The position numbers were made by a program, and so were the translations under genes. From Hydra vulgaris (Eukaryota > Cnidaria > Hydrozoa > Anthoathecata > Hydridae), in NCBI RefSeq assembly GCF_038396675.1, contig NC_088933.1:15276001-15340000 (forward strand): a DNA stretch of 64,000 nt, written 5' to 3'. Below are positions 3,676 through 62,454 of this stretch, one piece after another. Under the pieces are notes generated by a model. It was not told the DNA's origin. It worked only from the letters and a program-made list of their open reading frames with translations, and ran no database searches. How positions within the stretch are numbered: the first letter of the stretch is position 1; each line of letters starts with the position of its first letter.

Positions 3676-4115
3676 TACTACTGTGATCAAAAAGTAAGGT
3701 GAATTTTTAATTTAAACTTCCCGCCTTGTTCGAATCGTCCAATCTTTTTTATTTTTAAGTTGGTAGGAATGTCATTAACATTTGCGCCAAATTACATGTC
3801 AAACTCATAATTATTATTTTTTGTTTACGCTTGTTTCTGAAGTATCAAAAGTGCATTCGGCGATTTTCACGATGTCTAATTTTGTTGAGCAAAGAAGTGC
3901 TATTAAATTTTGTTTGCGGAATGATATTTCTGCTGCTGAAACGTATCGAATGTTGCAAAAGGCCTTCGGTGAAGAGACTATGTCTCAAAAAAATGTTTAC
4001 AAGTGGTACAAAGACTTCAAAGAAGGCCGAGAACGTGTTGATGACTTGGAACGCTCCGGACGACCATCGACTTCGATTGATGATCGCCACATCAACAAAA
4101 TCAAAGAATTGGTAT
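3676..4115 (+). pseudogene. Mariner transposase N-terminal fragment
   Basis: From an ATG at about 3871 the frame reads MSNFVEQRSAIKFCLRNDIS, then a helix-turn-helix region with KNVYKWYKDFKEGRE and ERSGRPSTS. These are hallmarks of mariner/SETMAR-type transposases: the DNA-binding N-terminus with its paired HTH and the GRPSTS linker motif. The usual length is about 340 residues; only the first ~80-90 are present, with no DD34D catalytic residues. Upstream, CTGTGATCAAAAAGTAAGGT (about 3681-3700) looks like the 5' terminal inverted repeat. The frame runs into a small CAGGG-ended insert at 4116 and the mariner sequence does not resume after it. Confidence 0.8.
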
Positions 4116-4182
4116 CAGGGCCGGCGATTCGGGTTTCGAAGTGCCTTCTCTCCCCCCCCCCCCCCTTTATTTGTCGGCCCTG
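4116..4182. mobile_element. 67 bp CAGGGCCGG-ended micro-MITE with GGTAT direct repeats
   Basis: The segment starts CAGGGCCGG and ends with the inverse TCGGCCCTG. It is flanked by GGTAT on both sides (4111-4115 and 4183-4187). The interior holds a run of about 14 C. CAGGG ends are typical of hAT-type non-autonomous elements, though those usually make 8 bp duplications; here only 5 bp match. Confidence 0.6.
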
Positions 4183-4195
4183 GGTATGCTTGTAT

Positions 4196-4532
4196 TATCT
4201 AGGTAATGCTGCGGTTAAGCGGCCTAAAATAATTTTATTTTTTTGCTTGTTGCACTCTTGTCAGAGGAGACTTTTTAAACTTTAGGAATATTAAGTGAAA
4301 TAATAAAAGAAAGATTGCTGCCCCATGCCAAACCCTTAGTCGATGTAACAGCACTTCCGCTTATAGCAGCAGGCTATAAGATAGTCGATGTATGTACTGA
4401 AGCCAATAAATATTCCTTATCTTTATATTAAAAAGTCATTACTATGAGCAAGTCTTCACGCGAGAGCGCAACAAGCAAAAAAATAAAATTATTTTAGGCC
4501 ACTTAACTGCAGCTTTACCGTTATCTAGATGT
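4196..4532. repeat. MITE with ~75 bp terminal inverted repeats
   Basis: The left arm (about 4196-4273) and right arm (about 4455-4532) are inverted copies. They share GGCCTAAAATAATTTTAT, TTTTTTTGCTTGTTGC and GACTT. The right arm carries a short extra AACGG-type stretch near its end. The ~180 bp centre has no coding capacity. The element lies immediately downstream of the mariner fragment. Confidence 0.75.
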
Positions 4533-7479: not shown

Positions 7480-8045
7480 GAGCACGTTAAAGAGATGCAA
7501 CCTTAGCAGATACTAGTTTTGAAATAGATTTGATATATAGTTTCCAAGAAAGACCGGAAATAAGAGCTAATAATAGAAGATGAAGGGCAGCTGACTCATT
7601 GATTACATTACCGTTCATAAATATAGGAAGATCTAGATTGTTGCAATAACAACTAGCCGAAAAAAATTTATTTTTATCTGAGTTAAAGTTCACCAGCTAC
7701 TTAGAACCCCATGCTGTAGCATAAGCAAAATTTTTTTCAAGCTTAAATGCCCCTTTCAAGCAATCAGAGAGTGTTGGTAATATTAGTATCATCAGCAAAC
7801 AATGCCACCTTAGATGCGAAAATATCTGGTAGTTCATGTTAATTAATTAGTATAGGCTAAGGATAGAACCTTGAAAAACCCCTGAAGTTACAGGATATGA
7901 AGAAGAGTTCTGTCCATCGAGGACAACTTTTGTAATACGATTGGTAACGAATGATTCAATAATCTTAAAGATGTTACCTGACATACCGTAAGAAAAGAGT
8001 TTATGGAAAAGAACAGCATGCCAAAATTTATCAAAAACAAAAAAA
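7480..8045 (-). pseudogene. LINE family A: reverse transcriptase fragment
   Basis: Minus-strand frames give FWHAVLFHKLFSYGMSGNIF, VLDGQNSSSYPVTSGVFQGS, then VALFADDTN around 7790-7805. After that come LPIFMNGNVINES and LALISGLSWKLYIKSISKL, in the order expected of a CR1/L2/Jockey-like non-LTR reverse transcriptase. FADD is the catalytic YxDD-type motif and is intact, but frameshifts occur on both sides (near 7845 and 7700). The fragment is truncated at both ends, with no endonuclease and no 3' tail. It is colinear with the copies at 22000-23670 and 59640-62060. Confidence 0.8.
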
Positions 8046-8321
8046 TTTAGTTCCGATAAAATAAATATAGCGTAGTGTAAACATAAAATACATCGATGAG
8101 TTAACTTAAAATACAACTTTTCGACAGTGAAAAATACAACGAACGTAAAATGCAAAGTTGAATCAACGTAAAATATTACGCAGTGCCCACTTAAAATATA
8201 ACGTTGTTTTTTGGTTGTTGGTGACGTCGCATTTGCAACCAAAATGATATAAAAACAACGTTGGCGGTCGATGTTGGGCCAACGCAACGCTCAACTTTAT
8301 TCTAACATTTTATTAACGTTT

Positions 8322-21999: not shown

Positions 22000-23670
22000 G
22001 ATTGTTAATTGTATGAATCAAGAAAACAAGACGAAGAGAGCAAAATCCAAAGAACTTATGTTCGAGGGAAAAAAACTAGACTAAGGAACAGTCGCAGTTA
22101 AAAGGTGAGACTTAGTTGAATGATAAGTAATACGAAAATGAGTTTTTGTTGGTAGCACAAAAGACACTACCTCTTTAGAGCAGCGCCTACTATAGCATTT
22201 ATAGAAAAGAAAAAGAGAAGCAACATTACGACAATGTGATAATTGTTGTAGGCTGGCAGCGAAAGCAGGTCCAACTATGTTTACAATGCATTTTTGCACT
22301 TTGTCTAAAAGAGAAAAGGCATGATTCAATGATATACTCCAGATATGGCAACAGCATTCTATGAAAGGATGGATTTGAGATTTATAGAGATAAAGAATAA
22401 AATCCGGAGTGAGAAAGTGGCTAGCGCGGTAAAGAGATGCAACCTTAGCAAATGCTAATTTTGAAATGGACTTGATAAATGGTTTCCAAGTAAGATCGGA
22501 AGTAAGAGTTAATCCTTGAAAACGAAGGGTAGATGACTCATCTAGTACATTACCGTTCATAAATATAGGAAAATCAAGATTATTGCAATAACGATTACCT
22601 GAAAAAAATTGAGTTTTATCTGAGTTAAAATTTACCCACCAACGAGAGCTCCATGCTGTAGTAGAAGTGAAACCCTTTTCAAGCTCAAATGCCCCCTTGA
22701 AACAATCAGAGAGTATTGGTTTCGTATCAAGACAAGAATAAATGGTAGTATCATCAGCAATACTAACTGTATTAGGTATACTAACTGATATTGAGTCAAT
22801 AGCTGTTTACTAAACTCTTAATTTTTCATAGCTTTGTTGAGGCAGCTCCTCCCCCCTCCCCCGGCACTGTTGGCCCTGAAGGACAAAACCTTGAAAACCC
22901 CTGAAGTTACAAAAAACGAAGAAGAGTGCTGTCCATTGAGGACAACTTCTATGCAATGATTGGTAAAGAAGGATTCAATAATCTTAAAGATGCTATCTGA
23001 TACACCGTAAAAATAGAAAGCTTTTAGAGAACCAACATGTCAAACTTTATTATAGGCTTTAGAAATATCGAGAGCGATAACCTTAACCTCTCAACATCTA
23101 TCTGATGCACAATAAAATCTATCGGGTTTTATCGTTAACAAATCAGCAGTAGAACGAGAAGACCGAAATCCATATTGATGATCAGAAAGTTATTAGGTTT
23201 AAGATAAGAGATTAGGTGTTTGTTTATTTAAGACTCAAAAACCTTGCTTATGATAATGAGAAGACTAAATAGACGGTAATTAGACGAATCAGATGGTTCT
23301 CCACGATTTTTGTAAATAGAGATAACACGTGACACAAGCTGTAGAAGAGTCTAAGCACGAAAGCACTTTTGATATAGAAGGTAGGGTGAAACGAATGTCA
23401 AGCAATGGATTAACCTGTTTGTCGAGTATATTAAGTAGAAATCAATTATGTAATCAAGAGATAAGATTGATGAAAAGCAATCTTATTTCTTGATTATCTT
23501 AGCAAACTGTTCATGACGTAACGAAATTTGAACCATGCAAGAGAAATAGTATAACATATTTGCCCTTATTATAAATACTGTTAAAGATTCTGCAGAAGTC
23601 TCTGGAGTCTATTTTATGAGATGAAAAACGAGATTTTGTGACTTGAGAATAGATATTTTGCGTTTGCCTA
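22000..23670 (-). pseudogene. LINE family A: RT to 3' end, 5'-truncated and rearranged
   Basis: The minus strand from 22560 to 22081 is open for 159 codons and holds the C-terminal region: LRFQGLTLTSDLTWKPFIKS, RASHFLTPDFILYLYKSQIH, CCHIWSISLNHAFSLLDKVQ, then the tail. Upstream, ADDTTIYS of the catalytic FADD motif is at about 22755-22778. Reverse-transcriptase palm sequence extends to about 23340, and the endonuclease-RT linker to about 23670. Around 22779-22877 the expected LINE sequence is replaced by about 100 bp of unrelated DNA. The 3' untranslated part (about 22000-22080) matches the copy ending at 59640. Frames shift repeatedly upstream of 22560. Confidence 0.8.
22783..22877. repeat. 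Foreign ~95 bp block replacing LINE sequence; inverse copy at 23955-24045
   Basis: AGGTATACTAACTGA, CAATAGCT and TTTGTTGAGGCA are repeated in the opposite orientation at about 23955-24045. The right end, CCGGCACTGTTGGCCCTG, resembles hAT-type CAGGGCC termini. The neighbouring LINE sequence lost about 80 bp at this point, so it is a substitution rather than a clean insertion. Confidence 0.6.
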
Positions 23671-31024: not shown

Positions 31025-31405
<381 letters not shown>

Positions 31406-32665: not shown

Positions 32666-32991
32666 ATCTAAAATCTTCTACAACAGGTTTACACACGTTC
32701 ATTTTACTATATAAGAGACATGTAAATCGACATGTAGTTCAGTCAGTATATGGAAGTCAATCAGTCAGTATTATCAAGACAGTTTATCGAAGTGAGTTTT
32801 ATCAAAGTTTTATCGAAGAACATCAATACAAGAAGTGAAATACAACAAGTGTTTCATTACATCAATACAGTCCACATCCAACCAAGACGTTGTGTTCCAC
32901 AGAGCATTGTTGTATCATCACAAGGTAAATGTAACACGCCTTGAGAAGCGTGATTATTTATTTTTATTATTTTTATGACTTCAAGTGCAAA

Positions 32992-34107
32992 ATGGCTCCC
33001 AAGAGTCTTGGATTGGAACTAAGAAAGAAAATTATTGGCGATTACGTAAGTGGAATGTCACAAAAAAGTATTTGTGATAAATATCGCGTGAAAAAATGGA
33101 CCGTATCAAGACTATTTTCCAAATATCGTTCTACGGGGAAGTTGTCAGCAGATAACAAAGGTGGAAGACCGCGTTCCACCACTTCTAGAGAGGATTCTAC
33201 GATTGTCAGATCCGTCAAGAAGGATCCCTGTATATCATCAGTCGAGATACAAAAGCAATTAGAGCTCCCTGAATCGGACCAAACAATCAGACGACGTGCT
33301 GTTGAAGCCGGATTATTTTCTCGACGCCCTGCAAAGAAACCGCTGATTTCACTAAAAAACCAGAAGAAATGACTCCTGTTTGCTACATCTCATACTGACT
33401 AGAATGTGCAGAAATGGCGAACTTTCCTGTTCAGTGATGAATCGAAGTTCAACATCATTGGAAGCGATGACATTTGCCGTGTTCGTCGACCGGCCAAAAA
33501 ACGCCTCGATTTACGTTACTGCTATTAAACCGTGAAGCATGGTGGAGGCAATGTAATGGTCTGGGGGTGTTTTTCTGCTAACGGTCAAAGTCCAATACAT
33601 CGAAACGATGGAATAATGGACCGTTTCATGTATAAAAATAATCTGAAAAATGTTATGTTACCTCATGCTGAATAGAATATGCCAATAAAATGGGTTTTTC
33701 AGCAAGACAACGATCCGAAACACACTGCAAAAGTAGTCAAGCAGTGGTTTCAAGACAATCACCTATCGGTGATGGATTGGCCGCCTCAATCTCCGGATCT
33801 CAACCCTATCGAGAACCTGTTGGAGATCGTCAACCGCAGAATTAATCGTGAAGGTGTTCGTAATAAGGATCAACTGTTTGAACAAATTCAAAAGGCCTGG
33901 GCAGCGACTCCACAAAGTTTCATTGATCACCTGATCGAATCTATGCCTCAAAGATGCAAGGCTGTGATCGAAAACAATAGATTCGCCACGAATGGTCAAC
34001 ATTTTGTCGAGTTGCACTTGTTTTGTCCAGAAGGAAATCAACTTTTTTTAATACTTTTGATTAATTTATTATTTTCGTGTACAAATAATGAACTTTGTGA
34101 TGAATAA
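32992..34107 (+). pseudogene. Tc1 transposase with four in-frame stops, no frameshift
   Basis: One frame runs from ATG 32992 to TAA 34105-34107 (371 codons, near the family norm of ~340). The N-terminal paired HTH reads LRKKIIGDYVSGMSQKSICD and then RVKKWTVSRLFSKY. A GGRPRST linker and RRAVEAGLFSRRPAKKPLIS come next. The catalytic triad is intact: Asp in LFSDESKF (33436-33438), Asp in FQQDNDPKHT (33706-33708), and Glu in PDLNPIEN (33811-33813), which leaves 34 residues between the last two. Stops are TGA 33370, TAG 33400, TAA 33526 and TAG 33673; at least two would be Arg or Trp in relatives. The absence of indels indicates a fairly recent insertion. As it stands it cannot make transposase. 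Confidence 0.93.
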
Positions 34108-34822: not shown

Positions 34823-35036
34823 GGGAGACCGGGGCTAGTTGCCCGCAGGGGTAAGTTGATGAACTTCGTTTATCTTCGGAGCCTTTCATCAGAAATTGAC
34901 AAAAATTACACAGAACCTTCCTAATTGACTATTTCATCATTCACTATAGTATTGTCTGGATTCGCGCATGAGCACAATAGATATTAAGATTTATGTATTT
35001 TTAGGACAAAAGCGTAACTTTTGGAACATTCCTTTT
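34823..35036. repeat. Insert of ~210 bp in the LINE, starting GGGGAGACCGGGGCTAGTTG
   Basis: LINE sequence on both sides (NYFLCKVK to the right, TLKVKKKYNIRND to the left on the minus strand) shows this block is foreign. Imperfect CTTT-GTAAAGTAAAAA-like repeats flank it. The left end is G-rich; no inverse end was seen. Confidence 0.55.
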
Positions 35037-36285
35037 TACTTTACAAAGAAAATAGTTAGTCGTAGGAAAAAAAATTGTTGTAAAAGTTCCTGTCACAAGT
35101 GGAGGAGTACATTTGAACATAAAACAAAGAATATTAAAAATATTTAATTGATATATATCAAGAATTTTCATTTCAAATAAGAGAGGCTTGGCATGAGTAA
35201 ATCTATCTTTAAAATTAATTAAACGAGCAACAGGCTTTTGTTGACAATAAGACGACCTAAGTTTGGATTTATTAGCACTACACCAAGCAATATTTGCATT
35301 GTTTAAATAACAATGGATAAAGGAGTAATATAATTGAGTTAAATTACGTTTATTTAAAGCACTTCTAGCTTTATACAATATCCGTATACTTTTAGCAACT
35401 CTATTACACAAAAACTCTATGTGATATTTCCAATTAAGGTTTTCATTGATATAGAAACGCAAAAAATTTGTATTATTTGCTCTTTTTATTACAATTTTGT
35501 CAATAAAAAATAATGGTAAATTGCAAGGCAGAAGTTTATTTTTAGAAGCTGGATAAAAAAGTAACCAATAGTTTTTTCAACATTAAGTGAAAGCTTGTTT
35601 ATTTTAAGCCATTTAGAAATTTTTGTTAATTTGGTATTCATATGTTGAAATAATGTTGTAATGTTGTTATCAGATAAAAAGAGGTTAGTGTCACCTGCAA
35701 ACATAACAGCGATCAAGTTCGAAGCTTTATGTAAATCATTGATGTAAATGAGAATGAGAAGGGGCCCAAGTATAGAACCCTGGTTATATTTAATAGATTG
35801 GAGGGGTTAGTTAAATCACTACAAACAAACTGTTTACGGTTGCTTAAATAGCTTTTAAGCAACAGAGAAACATTTCCTTTAATTTCATAATATTCAAGAA
35901 TTTTTAGGCAAATTTTACGATTAATTGCATCAAAAGCTTTTATCAAATCTTTACAACTCCCAATGTGAATTGAGAAGTTTCCAAAGATTCAGAAATATTG
36001 CGAATAATTTGGATTATTGCATATTCTGTTGAGATATTTTTTTAGGATCCGTATTGATTAACATTTAGTATATTATTTGACAAAAGGTGATTATAAAATA
36101 CGTTATTTAAAATTCTCTATACAACTTTAGAAACAATAGACAAAACAGAAATTGGGCGGTAATGAGAAACATTGGTTGCATCACCAGCCAATTGGAGTCA
36201 CTCAAGCTATTTTTAGAAAATCAGGAAAAACGCCATATTTTATTGAACAATGTAAAACATTAAATAGTACATTTTTTAAATGTAA

Positions 36286-38552: not shown

Positions 38553-38762
<210 letters not shown>

Positions 38763-48659: not shown

Positions 48660-49036
48660 ATACTAGTTTTTTACATGTATGTACATACATAACATCATAT
48701 GTGCATACAGAACATTTGTATGAACACAAGTAAACACATAGACATATACAAATAAAACATATAGATACATATTACATATATACACACATACATACATAAA
48801 TATATATACATAAATACATATATGCACACAAATATGCATATATATATACATACATACACATACATGCATACATACATACATACATACATACATACATACA
48901 TACATACATACATACATACATACATACATACATACATACATACATACATACATACATACATACATACATACATACATACATACATACATACATACATACA
49001 TACATACATACATACATACATACATACATACATACA

Positions 49037-49070
<34 letters not shown>

Positions 49071-49210
49071 CACACATACATACATATACACACATACATA
49101 TACACATAGACATACATACGCACACACATACGCACATATATACACATACATGTATACGCACACACAGGTGCATACACACTTACATATATACACATAAATA
49201 TACACACTCA
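48660..49210. repeat. (CATA)n / (ACAT)n satellite block
   Basis: The core 48866-49066 is almost pure CATA repeats. The flanks (48660-48865 and 49067-49210) are diverged CATA/CACA/TATA mixtures. It is open on several frames (Tyr-Val-Cys-Met or His-Thr-Tyr-Ile), which are artefacts of the period. Confidence 0.97.
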
Positions 49211-49399
49211 TACTCAATATATTTTATAAAGTATATTTTACTAAACTATATATAACATTATTTAAGAAAAAATTTACAGAATTAGTACTTAAGAACACTG
49301 TATATGTTTGCAATATATAATAACTTTAACAATAAAGTATTGTTCTAGAAAACACAAAATAAGAAAACTTAAAATCAAAATTTAAAAAAACATAGATAT
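49211..49399. other. Short spacer at LINE 3' end
   Basis: A+T-rich; may include the LINE 3' tail. Confidence 0.4.
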
Positions 49400-51023
49400 T
49401 TCATCTATTGAAAATATAATATTTTTTTAGTTTTAGTTTAAAGGAGGGATAACTACATTTCTTAAAAACATCAAAAAATTTTGTAATTATTTTATTCCAC
49501 AGAAAAGCTCTACAAAACGAGATGCAAAACTTTCCAAAATTTGTATGGTAAGAAGGTTGTCGAATAGCTTTATCATTTCTTAAGATATATTTGTTCTTTT
49601 CTTTCAAAGTAAATAAATTTTGAAAGGGTTCAGGAAATAAACTGTTTTTACATTTATACATAAAACAAAGAACATTGAAAATATTCAGCTCGTATATACT
49701 AAAAACATTCATATCAATTAGGAGAGGCTTGGCATGAGTAAAACGATCCCTAAAATTAATAAGGCGTGCAACATGTTTTTGTTGACAATATAGAGGTTCA
49801 AGTTTTCTTTTATTTATACTACTCCACGCAACACTTGAATAGTTTAGGTGGCAATGGATAAATGAATGATATAACTGAGTTAAAGTGTGCTTATTTAGGA
49901 TATTTCTTGTTTTATATAACATTCCAATACTTTTAGATATTTTATTGCCCAAATTTTCTATGTGTTTTTTCCATGAGAGACTTTCATCAATATAAACACC
50001 TAAAAATTTGGTAAAGCTTACTTGTTAGAGTATTGTCAATAAAAAGAAAAGGCATGTCATTTGGCAGTAAGTGTTTTTAAAAATGAGTGTGGATGAAAAT
50101 CCATTTGGTTTTGTCAATATTGAGAAATAATTTTTTTTGTCTTGAACCAATAAGAGATTTTAATTAGCTCGTTGCTCATGTTTTCAAATAGATAATTTGT
50201 TATTGAGAGATAAAAAAAAAGATGTGTCATCTGCGAACACAATTGTCATTAAGTTTGAGGCTTTATATAGATCATTGATGTAAATAAGAAATAATATTGA
50301 TCCCTGAGGTACTTTACATGTTATATCAAGCAAATTTCAATGCCAATTTGAATCAACGTAGACATATTACTTGCAATTACTTAGATAGCTTGTAATCCAA
50401 TTTAGAACATTACCAGTTATTCCATAATATTGCATAATAAACTTTTTTATAAGAATTTCACGATCTATGGTATCAAATGCCTTTGCTAAATCTATGAAAA
50501 CTCCCAAAGTATATTGGGAATTTTCAAATGATTCAGTTGTACTTCTTGAAAACTAGATAACTGCATGTTCCGTAGAATTATTTATTTTAAAACCATATTG
50601 GTTGATATATATGAGATTATTATTTAATAGGTGATTATATATTCTATGATAAAGAATTCTTTCTAAAACTTTTAAGAAAATGGAAAGAATGGATATAGAA
50701 CGGTAATTGTTAATATTAGTTAAATCCCCTCCTTTAAATATTGGTATAACCTTCGCTATTTTTGATTGATTAGGAAAAATTCCTTGTCTGATGGAACATG
50801 AAAATATCCTAAAAAGAATATCTTTTAAGACATCATATGAATTAATAACAATGTTTCCATTGATATCATCATGGCCAATGGCTTTGTTAGGTTTGAGCAT
50901 TTTAAAAGCACATTCAAATTCATCAAAAGTTAGCTCAAAGGAGTTAAGATGTGATGTTAGGGGGAAAGAAAGATATTTTTCAAAAGTATTAGTACTTGAA
51001 CTTTTTAGGCTAGGTTTTGGCCA

Positions 51024-51922
51024 ACGCACAGTGAGACAGAGTGTGCCAAAAGACCAAAAAATCAATATCAGCATTGCACGGTGAAAATTTGTCATAATGA
51101 TGAAGAGATGTTTATTAGAGGAAATACCTAGTTAAAAAAACATTAAATATTAGTTTAAGCGAAATTTTATTCGGTTATTTATACGTTAATTTGACATGTG
51201 TTCCAAAACGCTATTTTGCATTTTTTATTTATCAACTTTATTACGCTATTATTGTTTTAAATTAACTTTATTGACTTTCATTTTAAACTTTATTATTTTA
51301 ATTAAGATTGTCTTTTTCGCTCAGGCTTTTAAAAATAATTTAACGTAAATGTAATCATTAGTCTTTATGCATCGAAAACAGACAGTTTTCGATATTTTTT
51401 TTTGCTACTAACCTTTACTATTAGGTATCAGATAAACTATCCTCCAAACATTTGACTATGTAAATCTTTTGCTAAATGTATGTAAATAGCCATGCAACAT
51501 AAATATTTTGCAACTTTTTGCAATAAAATAAGTTATAACAAAAGATTGGTCTTTGGTTATTGGTCAGTTGATGAGAAATACTGAACATGTAAAAAAGATG
51601 TTTTGTACACAAAGAATACCAACAAAATCTTTCATTACTGTTATAATATATAAGTTTTGTAAATATAAATCTAAAAAAGTTATTTTATGACAAATACATG
51701 CATCGAAAAGTAATACTTTTAATGTTTACACTGATAAAAGTTGTCTTGTCCATTAAAAATACTTCGTATTTTTCAACAAAATAATAAAAAAAAATTTTTT
51801 TATTATATAAATACATGTTTATTACTTTATTTATGCATTTTATATATAAATATAGCTATTCTAATAAAAAAACTATGAAAATAATTTTGGCACAAAAAAC
51901 TCGATTTTGTCCCACTGTGCAA
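51024..51922. mobile_element. ~0.9 kb non-autonomous element with GCACAGTG ends
   Basis: The left end GCACAGTGAGACAGAGTGTG and right end GGCACAAAAAACTCGATTTT-GTCCCACTGTGC pair as inverted repeats of about 25-30 bp (CACAGTG-G-GACA...GTGCCAAAA). AAC lies on each side. The interior is A+T-rich with no gene. It interrupts LINE copy 2. Confidence 0.65.
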
Positions 51923-53150: not shown

Positions 53151-53437
53151 ACTGCAATGTTTAAGTGCAACGCGTTTAAATTATCAGGTTCAAGAAATTC
53201 TTATATTTCGTTGGTATTTTCGTTTTTTGTTTCGTATTTTCGTTGGTTGATATTTAAATTTAATTCACATTTTAAGATGTGCATACATCAACTGACAAAT
53301 AGGGTTTGGAGCAATTAAATGTACATGGTTTGGATCAGGGTTAAGGTCAGAAATCAATAGGAAATGCGTTTTGTATTAGTGTTGATAGAAACCAGGCTTT
53401 TTTTAAAGTTGTTATTGTAAAGGAATTTTCTCATAAA
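53151..53437. other. Spacer between LINE and TIR element
   Basis: May include LINE leader. No gene. TTTCGTATTTTCGTTGG repeats twice (about 53210-53245). Confidence 0.4.
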
Positions 53438-53955
53438 GGTAATTCCGCATCAAATCACCCAAAATTTAGAAAATTTTGAACCATGGGTCTTCAAATTTTT
53501 TAAAAACCTCTTTGGCTGTTGCATCTTAAAAAGAAAAGTTAACATATAAAATTTTAGCTAAAAATGTTGAGAGGTTGACAAGATACTGCAATTTTAATAC
53601 TGACCTCGTTTCCTAAAATGACCCGGTTTTCATAACACTCTGAAAAAACATTTTTCTTAAAATAGTAAGAAATAAAAATGGCAAAAACATGAAAATAAAC
53701 ATATATAATGTTTTTTTGATGCTGAATTCAATAAATGTACTTAAAATGCTAAAATATAAAAGGAACATGCTTAAAAATTAATAAAACAACTAGTTTCTAT
53801 AAAACAACTTTGGGGCCCAATATCTCAAAACACCCCCATCAAAAAAAATTTTTTTTTGCTGTTAATATTTTCAGCTGTTTATAATCTTATTAGGCACAAA
53901 AAATCTAACTGGAAAAACGACTGAAACATACGGAACTTTAATTTCAAAGATGTAT
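53438..53955 (+). repeat. Left terminal inverted repeat
   Basis: Inverse copy of 55649-56157; identity looks highest over the inner ~330 bp (from about 53620). Confidence 0.9.
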
Positions 53956-54103
53956 CAAATTTTCAATAAGCTATTTTAAAAAACTTTCAAATAGAATTCT
54001 GTAAAATATTATATTTAGTTAAAAGACTCCTTTAAAAAAAAAAACAATTTTGTTATATTTAAGGAAGTCTTAATTATATGATAACCAAAGTGGTGCATTT
54101 TGC

Positions 54104-55538
54104 ATGGGTGCAAGTGGTACACATTCTGTTTGTGTTTGTTCTTATGCCATATTGCTAGTAGATGCTTTAAATATTGGACTAAAGTATAAGGACTTACTTT
54201 CAAAAACCGTTTGCTCAGTAGAAAACAAAGAATGCATGTTTGCACAGTGTGATGATTGTCCTGGTAAAGAACCCCTTACCAAATATTTGTATGAGATTTT
54301 TGGAGAATACGAAGATGATTTTGAGATACACTACAAGCAAGGGCAAACTACTGACCGTGCAACACTATTAAGTTTAACAGCTGATGTTCCAACGTTTGTT
54401 GAACTATTAGCATCTTGTTTTGAAAAGCTACAAGCTCATTCTTTTATTTCTCACTCTCAATCACAGTACCTTAACCAACTGAAGCAATATATGGATCAAT
54501 CAAACATTATCCTTATTGACGACTTTGCTGAAAATTATGCTTTTGTTGTCCAAGATGAAATACAGAGCTATCATTGGAACACCCAACAATGTTCTTTACA
54601 TCCATTAGTCATATACTATAAAGATGATAAAGGTGAACTGAAACATATTTCTTACTGTTTTATATCAGATGACATTATACATGATGTAACTAATATGTAC
54701 AAAATATTCCAACTAATCATACCAATATTAAAAATAAAATTTTCCAATCTGTCTAAATTACATTTATTCACTGATGGTTGCACAGGACAGTACAAAAATT
54801 GTAAAAGCTTTTACAATCTATGTCAACTAGAGAGCGAATTAAAATTGAGTGGTACTTTTTTGCCACGTCCCACGGAAAGTCACCATGCGATGGGATTGGT
54901 GGTACTGTAAAAAGATTAACAACACAAGAAAATTTAAAACGACCGTACAAAAACCAAATTCTCACATCAGAAGCTATGTATGAATTTTGTATTGATAAAA
55001 TCAAAGTTGTTAACTTCATTTACATAAAGGGATTGGACTTACAATTGCAACGTGAAGAGCAAAAAGAAAGGCACACTGGTGTAACAACTCTACCTGTACT
55101 CGTAGCTTTCATCAATTTATATATCTTGGAGATAACAAGGTTGGGGCAAAGAGGTGTAGTACAGACACTAATTATACAATAATCCACAATCTTAAAAAGA
55201 AACAAAACATATCTCAACTTGATACTGTCACTTTAGGTTGTTATGTCGCTGTAGTCTGTGATGATAAGTGGTGGATCGGCATTGTAACTAAAACCAACTT
55301 CGAAGAAGTTGATGCTAAAGTTAAGTTTCTTCATCCAAATGGTCCATCAATCTGTTTTAACTGGCCTGAAAGAGACGACTACTGTTTTATTCCAAACACC
55401 AACATATTGAAAAGACTATCTGTTTCACAAGCTTGCTCTAGTTCTGGTAGAAACTATGTGTTTGAAAATGCTGAAATAGAGGAAGTACAAGTAAAATGGG
55501 AGCAATATTGTAAACTATTACAAACACAGTCAAAATAA
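54104..55538 (+). pseudogene. Transposase-like gene of the TIR element, two frameshifts
   Basis: ATG 54104 opens 268 codons in one frame. Residues 1-60 hold MGASGTHSVCVCSYAILL and a Cys-rich stretch CMFAQCDDCPGKEPLTKYLY. Then come QGQTTDRATLLS (about 80-90), SNIILIDDFAENYAFVVQDE (133-152, Asp139/140), IQSYHWNTQQCSLHPLVIYY, YCFISDDIIHDV and LSKLHLFTDGCTGQYKNCKS (216-235, Asp224). A +1 shift near 54840 leads to EWYFFATSHGKSPCDGIGG, about 40 residues after Asp224. A second shift near 55080 leads to TRSFHQFIYLGDNKVGAKRC. The tail follows with VAVVCDDKWWIGIVTKTNFE, KVKFLHPNGPSICFNWP and the stop at 55536. Asp139/Asp224/Asp in SPCDG have RNase-H-like transposase spacing (inference). The tail with WWIG and HP-G-F-WP may be a Tudor-like barrel. 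I recall this family from predicted cnidarian proteins of unknown function. The start may be truncated, since relatives seem longer. Confidence 0.8.
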
Positions 55539-55648
55539 CTTTCATCTTTGATACCTTTACAAATCTTGTATATTTAAGTAACCTTTTAAATTACGATTAA
55601 CTTTATTTTATTTACAAATATATTTTTTGGGAATTTCTTGAAAAAGTA

Positions 55649-56157
55649 ATACATCTTTGAAATTAAAGTTCCGTATGTTTTAGTTGTTTTTCCAGTTAGA
55701 TTTTTTGTGCCTATTAAGATTATAAACAGCTGAAAATATTAACAGCAAAAAAAAATTTTTTTTGATGGGGGTGTTTTAAGATATTGGGCCCCAAAGTTGG
55801 TTTATAGAAACTAGTTGTTTTATTAATTTTTATGCATGTTCTTTTTATATTTGAGCATTTTAAGTACATTTATTGAATTCAGAATCAAAAAAACATTATA
55901 TATGTTCATTTTCATGTTTTTGCCATTTTTATTTCTTATTATTTTAAGGAAAATGTTTTTTCAGAGTGTTATGAAAACCGGGTCATTTTGGGAAACTAGG
56001 TCAGTATTAAAATTGCAATATCTTGTCAACCGCTAAACTTTTTTAGCTAAAGTTTTGCATGCAATATTTTTTTTATAATTAGGAATAATGTGTCAAAATA
56101 TAACACAAAAGGAAGACACATGGTTCAATGGACTGGGTGATTTGATGTGGAATTGCC
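55649..56157 (-). repeat. Right terminal inverted repeat
   Basis: Complement of 53438-53955. Confidence 0.9.
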
Positions 56158-56169
56158 CATAACCGAGAA

Positions 56170-56399
56170 TGACAAAGATGGTGAATATTAGCGTTTTTAA
56201 TGTGGTTTTTTATACTTTAACATCAAATTAGAGTACTTTCCTCAAGTTTTCAGACCTATGTTTTGATATGATTCTGAATCAGTATAATGTATTCTATCTT
56301 AATCAATCAAAAAACAGGAAGGAGGGGGGGGGGGTTAGAAAGTCGAATAGCGCTAATATCATTTGGTGCCAAAGATGTTTTTCGCAATTTATATTAAAG
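56170..56399. other. Spacer; short MULE-like word
   Basis: TTAGCGTTTTTAATGTGGTT-TTTTAT at 56188-56213 matches 47822-47847 in inverse orientation, the upstream edge of the Mutator-like relic. A 14 bp G run lies near 56326. Confidence 0.45.
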
Positions 56400-56492
56400 T
56401 TTGGGTTTATTTAAGGTAAAATGTATGGCGTTTGGATTTCATTAAGGTAAAATGTACGGCGTTTGGGTTTAATGAAGGTAAAATGTATGGTG
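56400..56492. repeat. 31 bp minisatellite, 3 copies
   Basis: Unit GTTTGGGTTTATTTAAGGTA plus AAATGTATGGC. Confidence 0.9.
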
Positions 56493-57242
56493 TATACAGT
56501 TAAATTGGCAATTTGACGATTTGTATGATCATACGCAGGTAAAAGTAGTTGAATTTTTTTTTTTTTTTTTTTTTAAATTTTAAAGGGGGATAGCCCCTTA
56601 AGGGAATTTTTACTAAGGATTAACTATTATTTCAAATATTCTTTATTTTTGATCAAGTATACTCAACACTACTTTACAGAATTAATTACATTTAATGATA
56701 ATAGTAAAAACAAATCAGTCAGCATTTTTTTTCATAAAATGCGTGTTCCCGCTGAAATAATGCGAAGTTTCCGTTTTAACTATCGTTAAATTATTCTGCG
56801 ACATTTGATAGGTTTGCTTCTAACAGCTAAAGTTTGCATTTCACTTTTGGGAGCAATTTTATTTCTTTTTTGGCAATGATAAAAATTTCCTGAGACTTTT
56901 TTTTTGTGATTGTAAATAAAACTTTGTTTTTATGCGTGCGTGTTTGCACAAAAAACTTGGTTTCTTTTTTCTTATTTTTTGTGATTGAACACTAAACTTT
57001 TTTTTCTTTTGTGCTGACTAAACTTTTGAGCTAGATGTAAATCAACTTTATTAATAAATATTTAACTCAACACTCTTATGAAAAACTATTTTTTTATTCT
57101 AAAAATAAGAAAATCCTAAAAAATCACTAGTTTTTTAAAATGATTTCAAAAGTGACCCTATCTAATCAAAAGTGACCCTATCTATTCAACGAAAGGAAGC
57201 CGAAAAATTTTAAAAATATAAATAAATTTTTTTTTTTAATTT
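56493..57242. other. Spacer, no gene
   Basis: A ~20 bp T run near 56552, and GTGACCCTATCTA-TC repeated twice (about 57152-57186). Confidence 0.5.
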
Positions 57243-59639: not shown

Positions 59640-62060
59640 AAAGATTGCAAATTGTATGAATCAAAAAAACAAGATAAAGCAAGCGAATTCCAAAGAACTG
59701 ATGTTTAAGAAAAAAAAACTAAATGAATAAGAATTTTTGAAGCACTTAGAAACAGTCATGGTAGAAGGATGAGACATAAATATAGGAAGATCTAGATGAT
59801 TGCGATAATGATTAGCTGAAAAAATTGATTTTTATCTGAGAAATGATTTTCTAAAATCATTTCTCAGATAAAAATCAATATTTTATTTGAGAAATGATTT
59901 CAGAAAAATGATATCTGAAAAAATTGATTTTTATAATTCACCATCCATTGAGAGCTCCATGCTGTAGCAGAAGTAAGATCCATTTCAAGTTCAAATGCCC
60001 CATTCAAACAATCAGAGAGTGTGAGCTACTTCAAGACAAGAATAAATGGTAGTATCATCAGCAAACAATGCCACCTTAGATGTGAGAACTTTTTGAGGAT
60101 TGTTAATGTAAATCAAAAAAAGTATGGGGCCAAGGATAGAACCTTGAGGAACCCCTGAAGTTACAGGAAATAAAGAAGAGTTATGTCCACCGAGGACAAC
60201 ATTAATACTACGATTGGTAAGGAAGGATTCAATAGTCTTAAAGGTTTTACCTGTTTCACTGTAAGAAGAGAGTTTATGGAAAAGACCAGCATGCAAAACT
60301 TTATCAAAAGCTTTAAAAATGTTGAGAGCAATAGCCTTTCACATCTTCCTAATGGGCAACAAAACCTATGGTTTATTACTGTTAACAAATCAGCAGTAGA
60401 ACGAGAAGACCGAAATCCATATTGATGATCAGAAAATTATTAGATTCAAGATGAGAGACTAAGTGTTTGTTAATTAAAGACTCAAAAACATTGCTTATGA
60501 TAGGAAGAAGACTAATGGGACAGTATTTAAACGAGTCAGATTGCTCTACAGAACTTTTGAAAATAGGAATAACAGATGCTGCTTTTAGCAGGCTGGAAAA
60601 TAAGACTCTGATAAGCACTTAAATAGTTAAATAAACTGTTAAATAGTTTTGAAAGTATAGAAGACAGCTCAAAAGAACACTTCTGCAAGACTATAACAGG
60701 CATATTGTCTGGACCACAAGCTGTAGAAGAGTCAATGCAGGAAATCACTTTAGACACAGAATCTAGAGTGATTCGAATGTCAAGCAATGGATCAACCTGT
60801 TTGATGGCTATATCAGTTTAGATGTGATTAGTGGATTCAAGAGATAATTGGTGAAGTTCTTAGCAAACAATTTAGCTTTGTCTGCAGGTAAAGTAACAAA
60901 ATCTAAACCATGCAAGAGAGGTAGAATATTAGATTTGCATCTGAAGTCTCTGGAGCCTTATTTTTGAGTTGAAATACAAGATTTTGTGACCTGAGAATAG
61001 CAGGTTTTGGCATTTCACAAAACCTTTTCTCTAGCCATAGTAAACAGTTTGGTTTCTAGCCATAGTAAACAGACATCTATTTTCTGGAGAATTGTTTTGG
61101 CAACAGATATGGAAGTAATAGTTATGGTTAGAAATTGCAGCAACACAATGAGAAGAAAACCATTGAGAAGAGTGAGGCTTGATTTGGAATTGCCAAGAGA
61201 AAATAAAAGATTCCATGCCGGCCTAAATCCAAGAAGTTACATAAGAAGTTACATAAGAAGCACATTTGTCAGCAGGAAGACAAAAGACTTCCACCCAAGG
61301 CCCATCACAAAAAAAGTTCCAGTCAGCTTTAAGGTATGAGGTATTATGATTGGGGGATTCCGATGATGAAGAAGAATGAGATAATAATTTTAGAGAGACC
61401 AAACAATGATCAGAAGCACCTAAGGGTGAATGTGGAGAAACTGAGCACTGATTATTATCAGAAGCAAGACATAAGTCGAGTAGAGAAGGTAAATGATTTG
61501 GATTGTCTGGAAAGCATGTTGGAAAGTTGACAATTTGCATTAGAGATTGCATTAGAGAAAAACAAAAGTTATCGGCCTTAACCCCTTTAAAGTCACTGAC
61601 ACTAGAGGTAGTGATTTTGGCAAGTGACACTTAGTGGCAGTGATTTTGGCTGAAGGAAAAAGAGTAAGGGCTGGCCAAATTGATCAGAAATAACATCAAA
61701 AGGAGTGCAGTCTTGAGATGAAGAAGAGAAATATATAATAAAGAGAAAGGTGATAGAGTAAAGTGGTGCTAAACGAAAGTACATAAAAGAATAGTCTGCC
61801 GATTCAAACCTAGTTTCCTGATAAATGGGTGAATTCTTAAGAATGTATATGCCCAGGCCAAGCATGTGATTATTTAAGTCTTTACGAATTAAAGGAAGAT
61901 AACCATCAACACAAAGATCACAAAATGGGACAGCTGAACTCAAATTAATCTCACTATGAGCAAGCACTTCTGGTGAACCTTGAAAAAGATGACTCAACTG
62001 CAGAAAAATTACTTCGAAGGCCACAAATATTAGTGAATGATAGGTTTCAAGAATTTGGTA
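59640..62060 (-). pseudogene. LINE family A copy 3: endonuclease-RT, internally deleted
   Basis: Reading the minus strand from about 62060: endonuclease remains with RKDLNNHMLGLGIYILKNSP, TRFESADYSFMYFRLAPLYS (61800-61860), NFPTCFPDNPNHLPSLLDLC (about 61480-61540), LGASDHCLVSLKLLSHSSSS. RT follows with SSTACGPDNMPVIVLQKCSF (about 60668-60730), KAASVIPIFKSSVEQSDSFK, SLLPIISNVFESLINKHLVS, SFLTNRSINVVLGGHNSSLF, PVTSGVPQGSILGPILFLIY and VALFADDTTIYSCL (about 60045-60085, catalytic Asp pair intact). Between about 59770 and 59790 most of the thumb/C-terminal region is deleted and sequence jumps to the 3' end, which resembles 22000-22090. Numerous frameshifts. Clade CR1/L2/Jockey-like. Confidence 0.85.
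59825..59880. repeat. Near-perfect 56 bp palindrome in LINE sequence
   Basis: ATTGATTTTTATCTGAGAAA...is mirrored exactly around TCTAA. A third, diverged copy of the arm follows (59881-59935). The original arm is LINE sequence (compare 22605-22625). Confidence 0.95.
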
Positions 62061-62454
62061 ATGATGATGGTGGTTTTTTTGTGTTTTACAGTTTTTGATA
62101 CTTTAGTCACTTTTTAAATATAAAATATTTGATTTCTTGAACTGACTTTGGTCCACCTAGCTTGTATGAAGCGATACTAGGGCTGATCAAATAATGGACA
62201 AATTAAACTATTTAAATAAAAAATAATTTTTGGATAATTATTTAAATAGTTCAAATATTATATATTAAATTCAAATATTTATAGTATCAATAATAACATT
62301 TGTTTTTAGTACAAAGTAAATTGGTGCATGGTAAAAAGTAAAGACATTCCTAATATCTTGATAACCAATATAACAATATATTAAAATGTTATATATGGTA
62401 GCATATTTTATTTTATAAAGAATAAGAAAATTTGACTTATTGCTTCAGCCAAAC
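62061..62454. other. Spacer with a palindrome
   Basis: AACTATTTAAATA and TATTTAAATAGTT face each other at about 62206-62252, next to ACTAGGGCTGATCAAATAAT, which looks like a hAT-type end. No gene. Confidence 0.45.

Follow-up and report, generated by a model that had tools for sequence, protein, structure and literature searches.

What kind of mobile element left the long inverted repeats, and the broken gene between them, in a 64,000-nt stretch of the Hydra vulgaris genome (contig NC_088933.1, positions 15,276,001 to 15,340,000; this whole stretch is called the window below), and to which transposases is that gene related? The element, at window positions 53437 to 56158, is very probably the dead, internally deleted relic of a cut-and-paste DNA transposon whose transposase used three catalytic aspartates (a DDD triad; D1, D2 and D3). 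We lean towards placing the transposase family within, or as sister to, the Sola superfamily. The parts of the element are listed here, with residue numbers of the remnant taken from P0001, an intact Hydra vulgaris relative of about 840 residues.

53433 to 53436, no strand: left ATAA, proposed 4-bp target-site duplication (from a flush match at one insertion)
53437 to 56158, no strand: whole element, 2722 bp, between the proposed duplications
53437 to 53975, plus strand: left arm, a terminal inverted repeat with its tip at 53438-53460, a diverged stretch to about 53525 and its core at 53526-53969; inner end approximate
54085 to 54108, plus strand: first coding remnant (PKWCIL), frame 1, P0001 residue 349 onward; read by eye against P0001, being too short for tblastn
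54107 to 54847, plus strand: main transposase fragment, frame 2, with D1 (DDFAEN) and D2 (FTDGCTGQYKN), lacking residues HQN; from tblastn
54844 to 55083, plus strand: fragment after the second frameshift, frame 1, with D3 (SHGKSPCDGIGG); borders approximate
55089 to 55538, plus strand: fragment after the third frameshift, frame 3, running to the stop codon, with the predicted Tudor/SH3-like barrel; left border approximate
55629 to 56158, minus strand: right arm, a terminal inverted repeat with its core at 55635-56078 and its tip at 56135-56157; inner end approximate
56159 to 56162, no strand: right ATAA, proposed duplication

Inverted repeats of about 0.5 kb with matching outer ends had been noticed in an earlier, sequence-only reading of this DNA, and both are confirmed. 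The cores (444 nt each) are 93% complementary, with 31 differences of five kinds, and the full arms, about 540 bp long, agree at 466 of 535 ungapped columns (87%). Their longest exact inverted match is 63 nt; when the single bases of the 4-kb segment were shuffled 100 times, none exceeded 22 nt. The outer tips, GGTAATTCCGCATCAAATCACCC on the left and GGCAATTCCACATCAAATCACCC on the right (the latter as its reverse complement), agree over 23 bp with two mismatches, and the arms are more diverged between tip and core. If the arms were identical at first, the 7% difference between their cores would make the insertion an old one. No second copy of the arms or the gene was found within the window. 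Immediately to the right of the element, at 56399-56493, a 31-bp unit stands in three copies, head-to-tail.

The same reading had pointed to CATAA on both sides. The five letters are literally there (53432-53436 and 56158-56162), but as a 5-bp duplication they were set aside, since this would put the two ends one base out of register. ATAA is the sole perfect flush match of at least 3 bp among the ten registers compared; chance gives a perfect flush match of at least 4 bp for 1.25% of random window pairs with one register and for 5.3% with five. For the single insertion examined, a 4-bp ATAA target-site duplication is plausible, and the termini would then be AGG and GGG. An alternative 6-bp duplication with one mismatch (CATAAA/CATAAC) would confine the element to 53438-56157, with GG at both termini. 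The flanking sequences, CTCATAA (left) and CATAACCG (right), are free of TTAA.

Between the arms lies a remnant rather than a whole single gene, and the description of the transposon as nearly intact does not hold. Coding sequence survives as four stretches in three frames from P0001 residue 349 (54085) onward, and for P0001 residues 1-348 no tblastn match in the window falls below E 0.61. The tblastn matches of P0001 cover 54107-54847 (residues 356-605, 212/250 identical), 54811-55152 (81/114) and 55035-55535 (128/169). Three frameshifts lie near 54105 (about 54103-54108), 54847 and 55085, and a three-residue deletion (CSYHQNAILL to CSYAILL) takes out an invariant His. Because of these lesions and the loss of the N-terminal half, the copy is, to judge from its sequence, unable to make its enzyme. 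All three catalytic Asp codons are retained, and the three protein motifs picked out in the earlier reading are present.

A gene fragment between long arms, with the linkage of arms and gene known from one locus, could also be a foldback-type repeat pair around a captured or host gene piece, in which case the protein would not be the mover of these ends. We regard this as highly improbable: the remnant is one collinear stretch between the arms, the DDD triad is conserved and an RNase-H core predicted in the family to which it belongs, and the database clusters of that family contain many member sequences among the matches listed.

The family was gathered with a read-through of the remnant as protein query, which gave 1190 proteins at E<=0.01, 120 of them listed. 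The search had a length ceiling of 1.75 times that of the query (about 850 residues), and longer members may exist; those listed span 328 to 851 residues. Hosts named among them are Hydra vulgaris, Penaeus indicus, Bemisia tabaci and Araneus ventricosus, most rows being nameless, and the three best-named relatives (P0001, P0002 and P0004) are all from Hydra vulgaris. The Asp spacings in P0001 are 84 (D1-D2) and 41 (D2-D3), in agreement with the earlier estimates of about 85 and 40. D497, D581 and D622 are each kept in 70/70 rows of one alignment (A1), where H616, K629 and R630 are likewise invariant. In a second alignment (A2) the three Asp occur in 69, 70 and 69 of 70 rows, with Glu at D1 in one row and Tyr at D3 in one. 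Directly before the core, A1 has an invariant Cys/His run (C352, H361, C366, H369, C394, C401, C406, C409), and most of its rows carry one Cys and one His downstream of D2. More conserved Cys/His are found near residues 45-106, in the 25 to 50 rows of A1 that extend there. The Cys/His clusters are putative zinc sites.

Comparison of a predicted structure with RNase-H folds had been proposed as a check. An RNase-H core is indeed predicted, the triad positions fit it, and together with the conserved triad this supports the initial reading as a DNA transposon whose enzyme is a DDD/E-type transposase. A Tudor/SH3-like barrel is predicted at the C-terminus (P0001 about 739-797), and the positions of P0002 Y344, W349, F367, F377 and W379 in it are aromatic in 95-100% of rows. 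Chromo_MORC2_6th, a weak Pfam match below the cut-off, coincides with the barrel in position and may be a slight but genuine trace of it. PHF19, at E 1.2-1.3 in the PDB sequence search with A1, was later supported by fold comparison; the A2 search was without it. All rows of the PDB sequence searches with the window fragment, A1 and A2 were at chance level. In a viral structure library two rows reached E<=0.001, one unnamed (root-mean-square deviation 19.5 Å) and one a phage transactivator/viroplasmin (17.7 Å); neither was used, and several RNase H rows rank below them.

Profile searches matched no catalytic-domain transposase model, whether with window pieces or with nine family proteins. None of the families that the nine proteins matched in Pfam, NCBIfam or PHROGs bears the name of a transposase core. 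Pfam holds core models for hAT, MULE, P, Tc1/mariner, Harbinger, KDZ/Zisupton and retroviral-type integrase, and none of these matched the nine at E<=1. A Pfam scan of the 70 members of A2 gave, among the best 25 of 59 families, HTH_Tnp_ISL3 (2) and HTH_Tnp_Mu_2 (1) as the sole transposase models, both of DNA-binding helix-turn-helix domains, with no catalytic core; HTH_23 was matched by 10 of the 70. The weak Pfam matches of the window pieces (DUF2790, GH97_C) and of the nine relatives fall below the cut-off and are regarded as chance. The NCBIfam scan yielded three weak matches, spread over two proteins, and the PHROGs scan a single one; no transposase is among their names. No RNA family reached its gathering score in the window. 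Outside the window, none of 23 pattern matches in viral contigs (protein profile) and none of 56 in prokaryote genome contigs was confirmed; the terminus pattern was not found in viral contigs, and a protein search of phages and plasmids gave no match.

These negative results would suit an undescribed DDD superfamily, apart from Sola and the other named groups and with the function-unknown family DUF7869 (PF25273) as a distant sister. So would the labels of the relatives: the named proteins among the 120 listed are just 'uncharacterized', 'hypothetical' or 'unnamed', which lends partial support to the earlier suggestion that such a superfamily is recorded solely as hypothetical proteins. The portions of the literature reached by our search also supplied no name for such a family. 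We nevertheless think this explanation unlikely. Pfam is not known to have a Sola, Academ or Novosib model, which leaves the absence of Pfam matches with little weight here. Hydra has been mined for Repbase over years, and the family is therefore probably in Repbase already. Finally, the DDD triad, the long inverted repeats and the proposed flush 4-bp duplication agree with Sola.

According to PMC10741241, Sola elements have a DDD transposase, a 4-bp duplication, terminal inverted repeats of 11-1124 bp and lengths mostly of 2-9 kb; a Sola2-type protein of 888 aa is described from one amoebozoan element (PMC3627910). Sola was compared by such published features. The triad is alike, and the arms and the 2722 bp of this element lie inside the Sola ranges, although this is weakly diagnostic and the copy is internally deleted. 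The flush ATAA of this one insertion is of the right length, but the site can also be read as 6 bp with one mismatch, and ATAA differs from the AWWT given for amoebozoan Sola2 elements (PMC3627910). Membership in Sola, or a sister relationship to it, is the placement that we modestly favour.

The family could instead be a diverged lineage of some other named superfamily that is poorly covered by Pfam models (Kolobok, Academ, IS3EU, Zisupton/KDZ or similar), which we consider improbable. Kolobok transposases also have zinc fingers near the core, but PMC9587614 gives them a TTAA duplication and Glu as the last catalytic residue, whereas this one insertion has no TTAA at its flanks and the third residue of the family is Asp in 70/70 rows of A1. 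A C/DxxH motif between the second and third catalytic residues is a further Kolobok trait, to which the Cys and His that follow D2 in most rows may or may not correspond. The termini are not the TA..TA of IS3EU, as described in PMC10045372, and the nine proteins have no match to KDZ or any other transposase core in Pfam. The lack of TTAA and of any Pfam transposase match in the nine proteins likewise sets the family apart from piggyBac. Tc1/mariner transposases (Mos1, Metnase) are unlike it in the D1-D2 spacing of 84, the Cys/His clusters and the Tudor-like domain; no flush TA duplication was found, and again no Pfam match in the nine proteins. Retroviral integrases share 7-16% identity in the rows shown, have other N-terminal modules and place core and barrel differently (10-19 Å over both); their third catalytic residue is Glu, in contrast to the Asp here.

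A connection with DUF7869 is found in the D2-D3 stretch. A seeded protein search gave 185 proteins at E<=0.001, 120 of them listed and many with PF25273; 40 of those listed, 33 of which are annotated with PF25273, made up a third alignment (A3). Profile comparison over D2-D3 gave a probability of 94.5% (E 8.1e-08 for that single pair) between A2 and A3, and 93.2% (E 3e-07) between A1 and A3, compared with at most 2.5% for 60 column-shuffled controls and 0.2% for a reversed one. The two share a D2 block, DGC.GQ.KN, and a His-led D3 block, in register over 90 columns; the aligned similarity is limited to D2-D3. The PF25273 model itself had no match at E<=1 in the nine members and was absent from the best 25 of 59 families in the 70-member scan, and our literature search found no mention of DUF7869 or PF25273. 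DUF7869 proteins seem, from this alignment, to share at least the D2-D3 catalytic half with the transposase family, and DUF7869 may itself be a transposase core because it aligns with both blocks. A bolder version, in which a large undescribed DDD superfamily is joined to DUF7869 by these blocks and its conserved Tudor-like barrel steers insertion by reading chromatin, strikes us as doubtful.

Returning to the favoured picture of a deleted DDD transposon, its movement can be sketched as follows. An intact relative would encode a single protein of about 840 residues, whose N-terminal Cys/His module and helical, helix-turn-helix-like region would bind the long inverted ends, with the second Cys/His cluster, of putative zinc sites, preceding the RNase-H core. 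The full-length enzyme from an intact copy would pair the bound ends, and the core, with its D-84-D-41-D triad, would cut them and join them to a target opened with a stagger of 4 bp, so that ATAA flanks the insertion on each side; the C-terminal barrel may contact DNA or chromatin. We suspect that the present copy formed when the 5' half of the gene was lost, perhaps through incomplete gap repair, while both ends of the element were kept, and that it decayed later. Given the lost N-terminal half and the three breaks of frame, any movement of this copy would depend on enzyme supplied by another.

The window around the element is A+T-rich (25-34% G+C per 4-kb block), and it holds other open reading frames (ORFs) that, judged by eye, resemble remnants of transposable elements. 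An ORF at 3779-4285 (plus strand) resembles the N-terminal part of a mariner-type transposase remnant and one at 32935-34107 (plus strand) a Tc1-type remnant, while ORFs resembling pieces of non-LTR (long terminal repeat) retrotransposon proteins lie on the minus strand at 7847-8290, 22081-22806, 35001-35576, 49401-50024, 50553-51131 and 61223-62102. A near-perfect palindrome occupies 31025-31404 (190-nt arms, no spacer, 98%), and a related one with 65-nt arms lies 7 kb away at 38617-38746. At 48663-49255 a long tandem array of short units is open in several frames (CMYV and HTYI repeats); the ORFs in it are unlikely to be genes.

By the present evidence, the homologues (1190 clusters counted, 120 listed), which where named are annotated as uncharacterized or hypothetical host proteins, represent transposases or what is left of them. 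With a Pfam-style model built on the triad, the Cys/His cluster and the Tudor-like barrel, many genome annotations would be put in order. Should the barrel indeed read histone marks, this would be a DNA transposon that brings its own chromatin reader, in a family where the idea could be put to the test.
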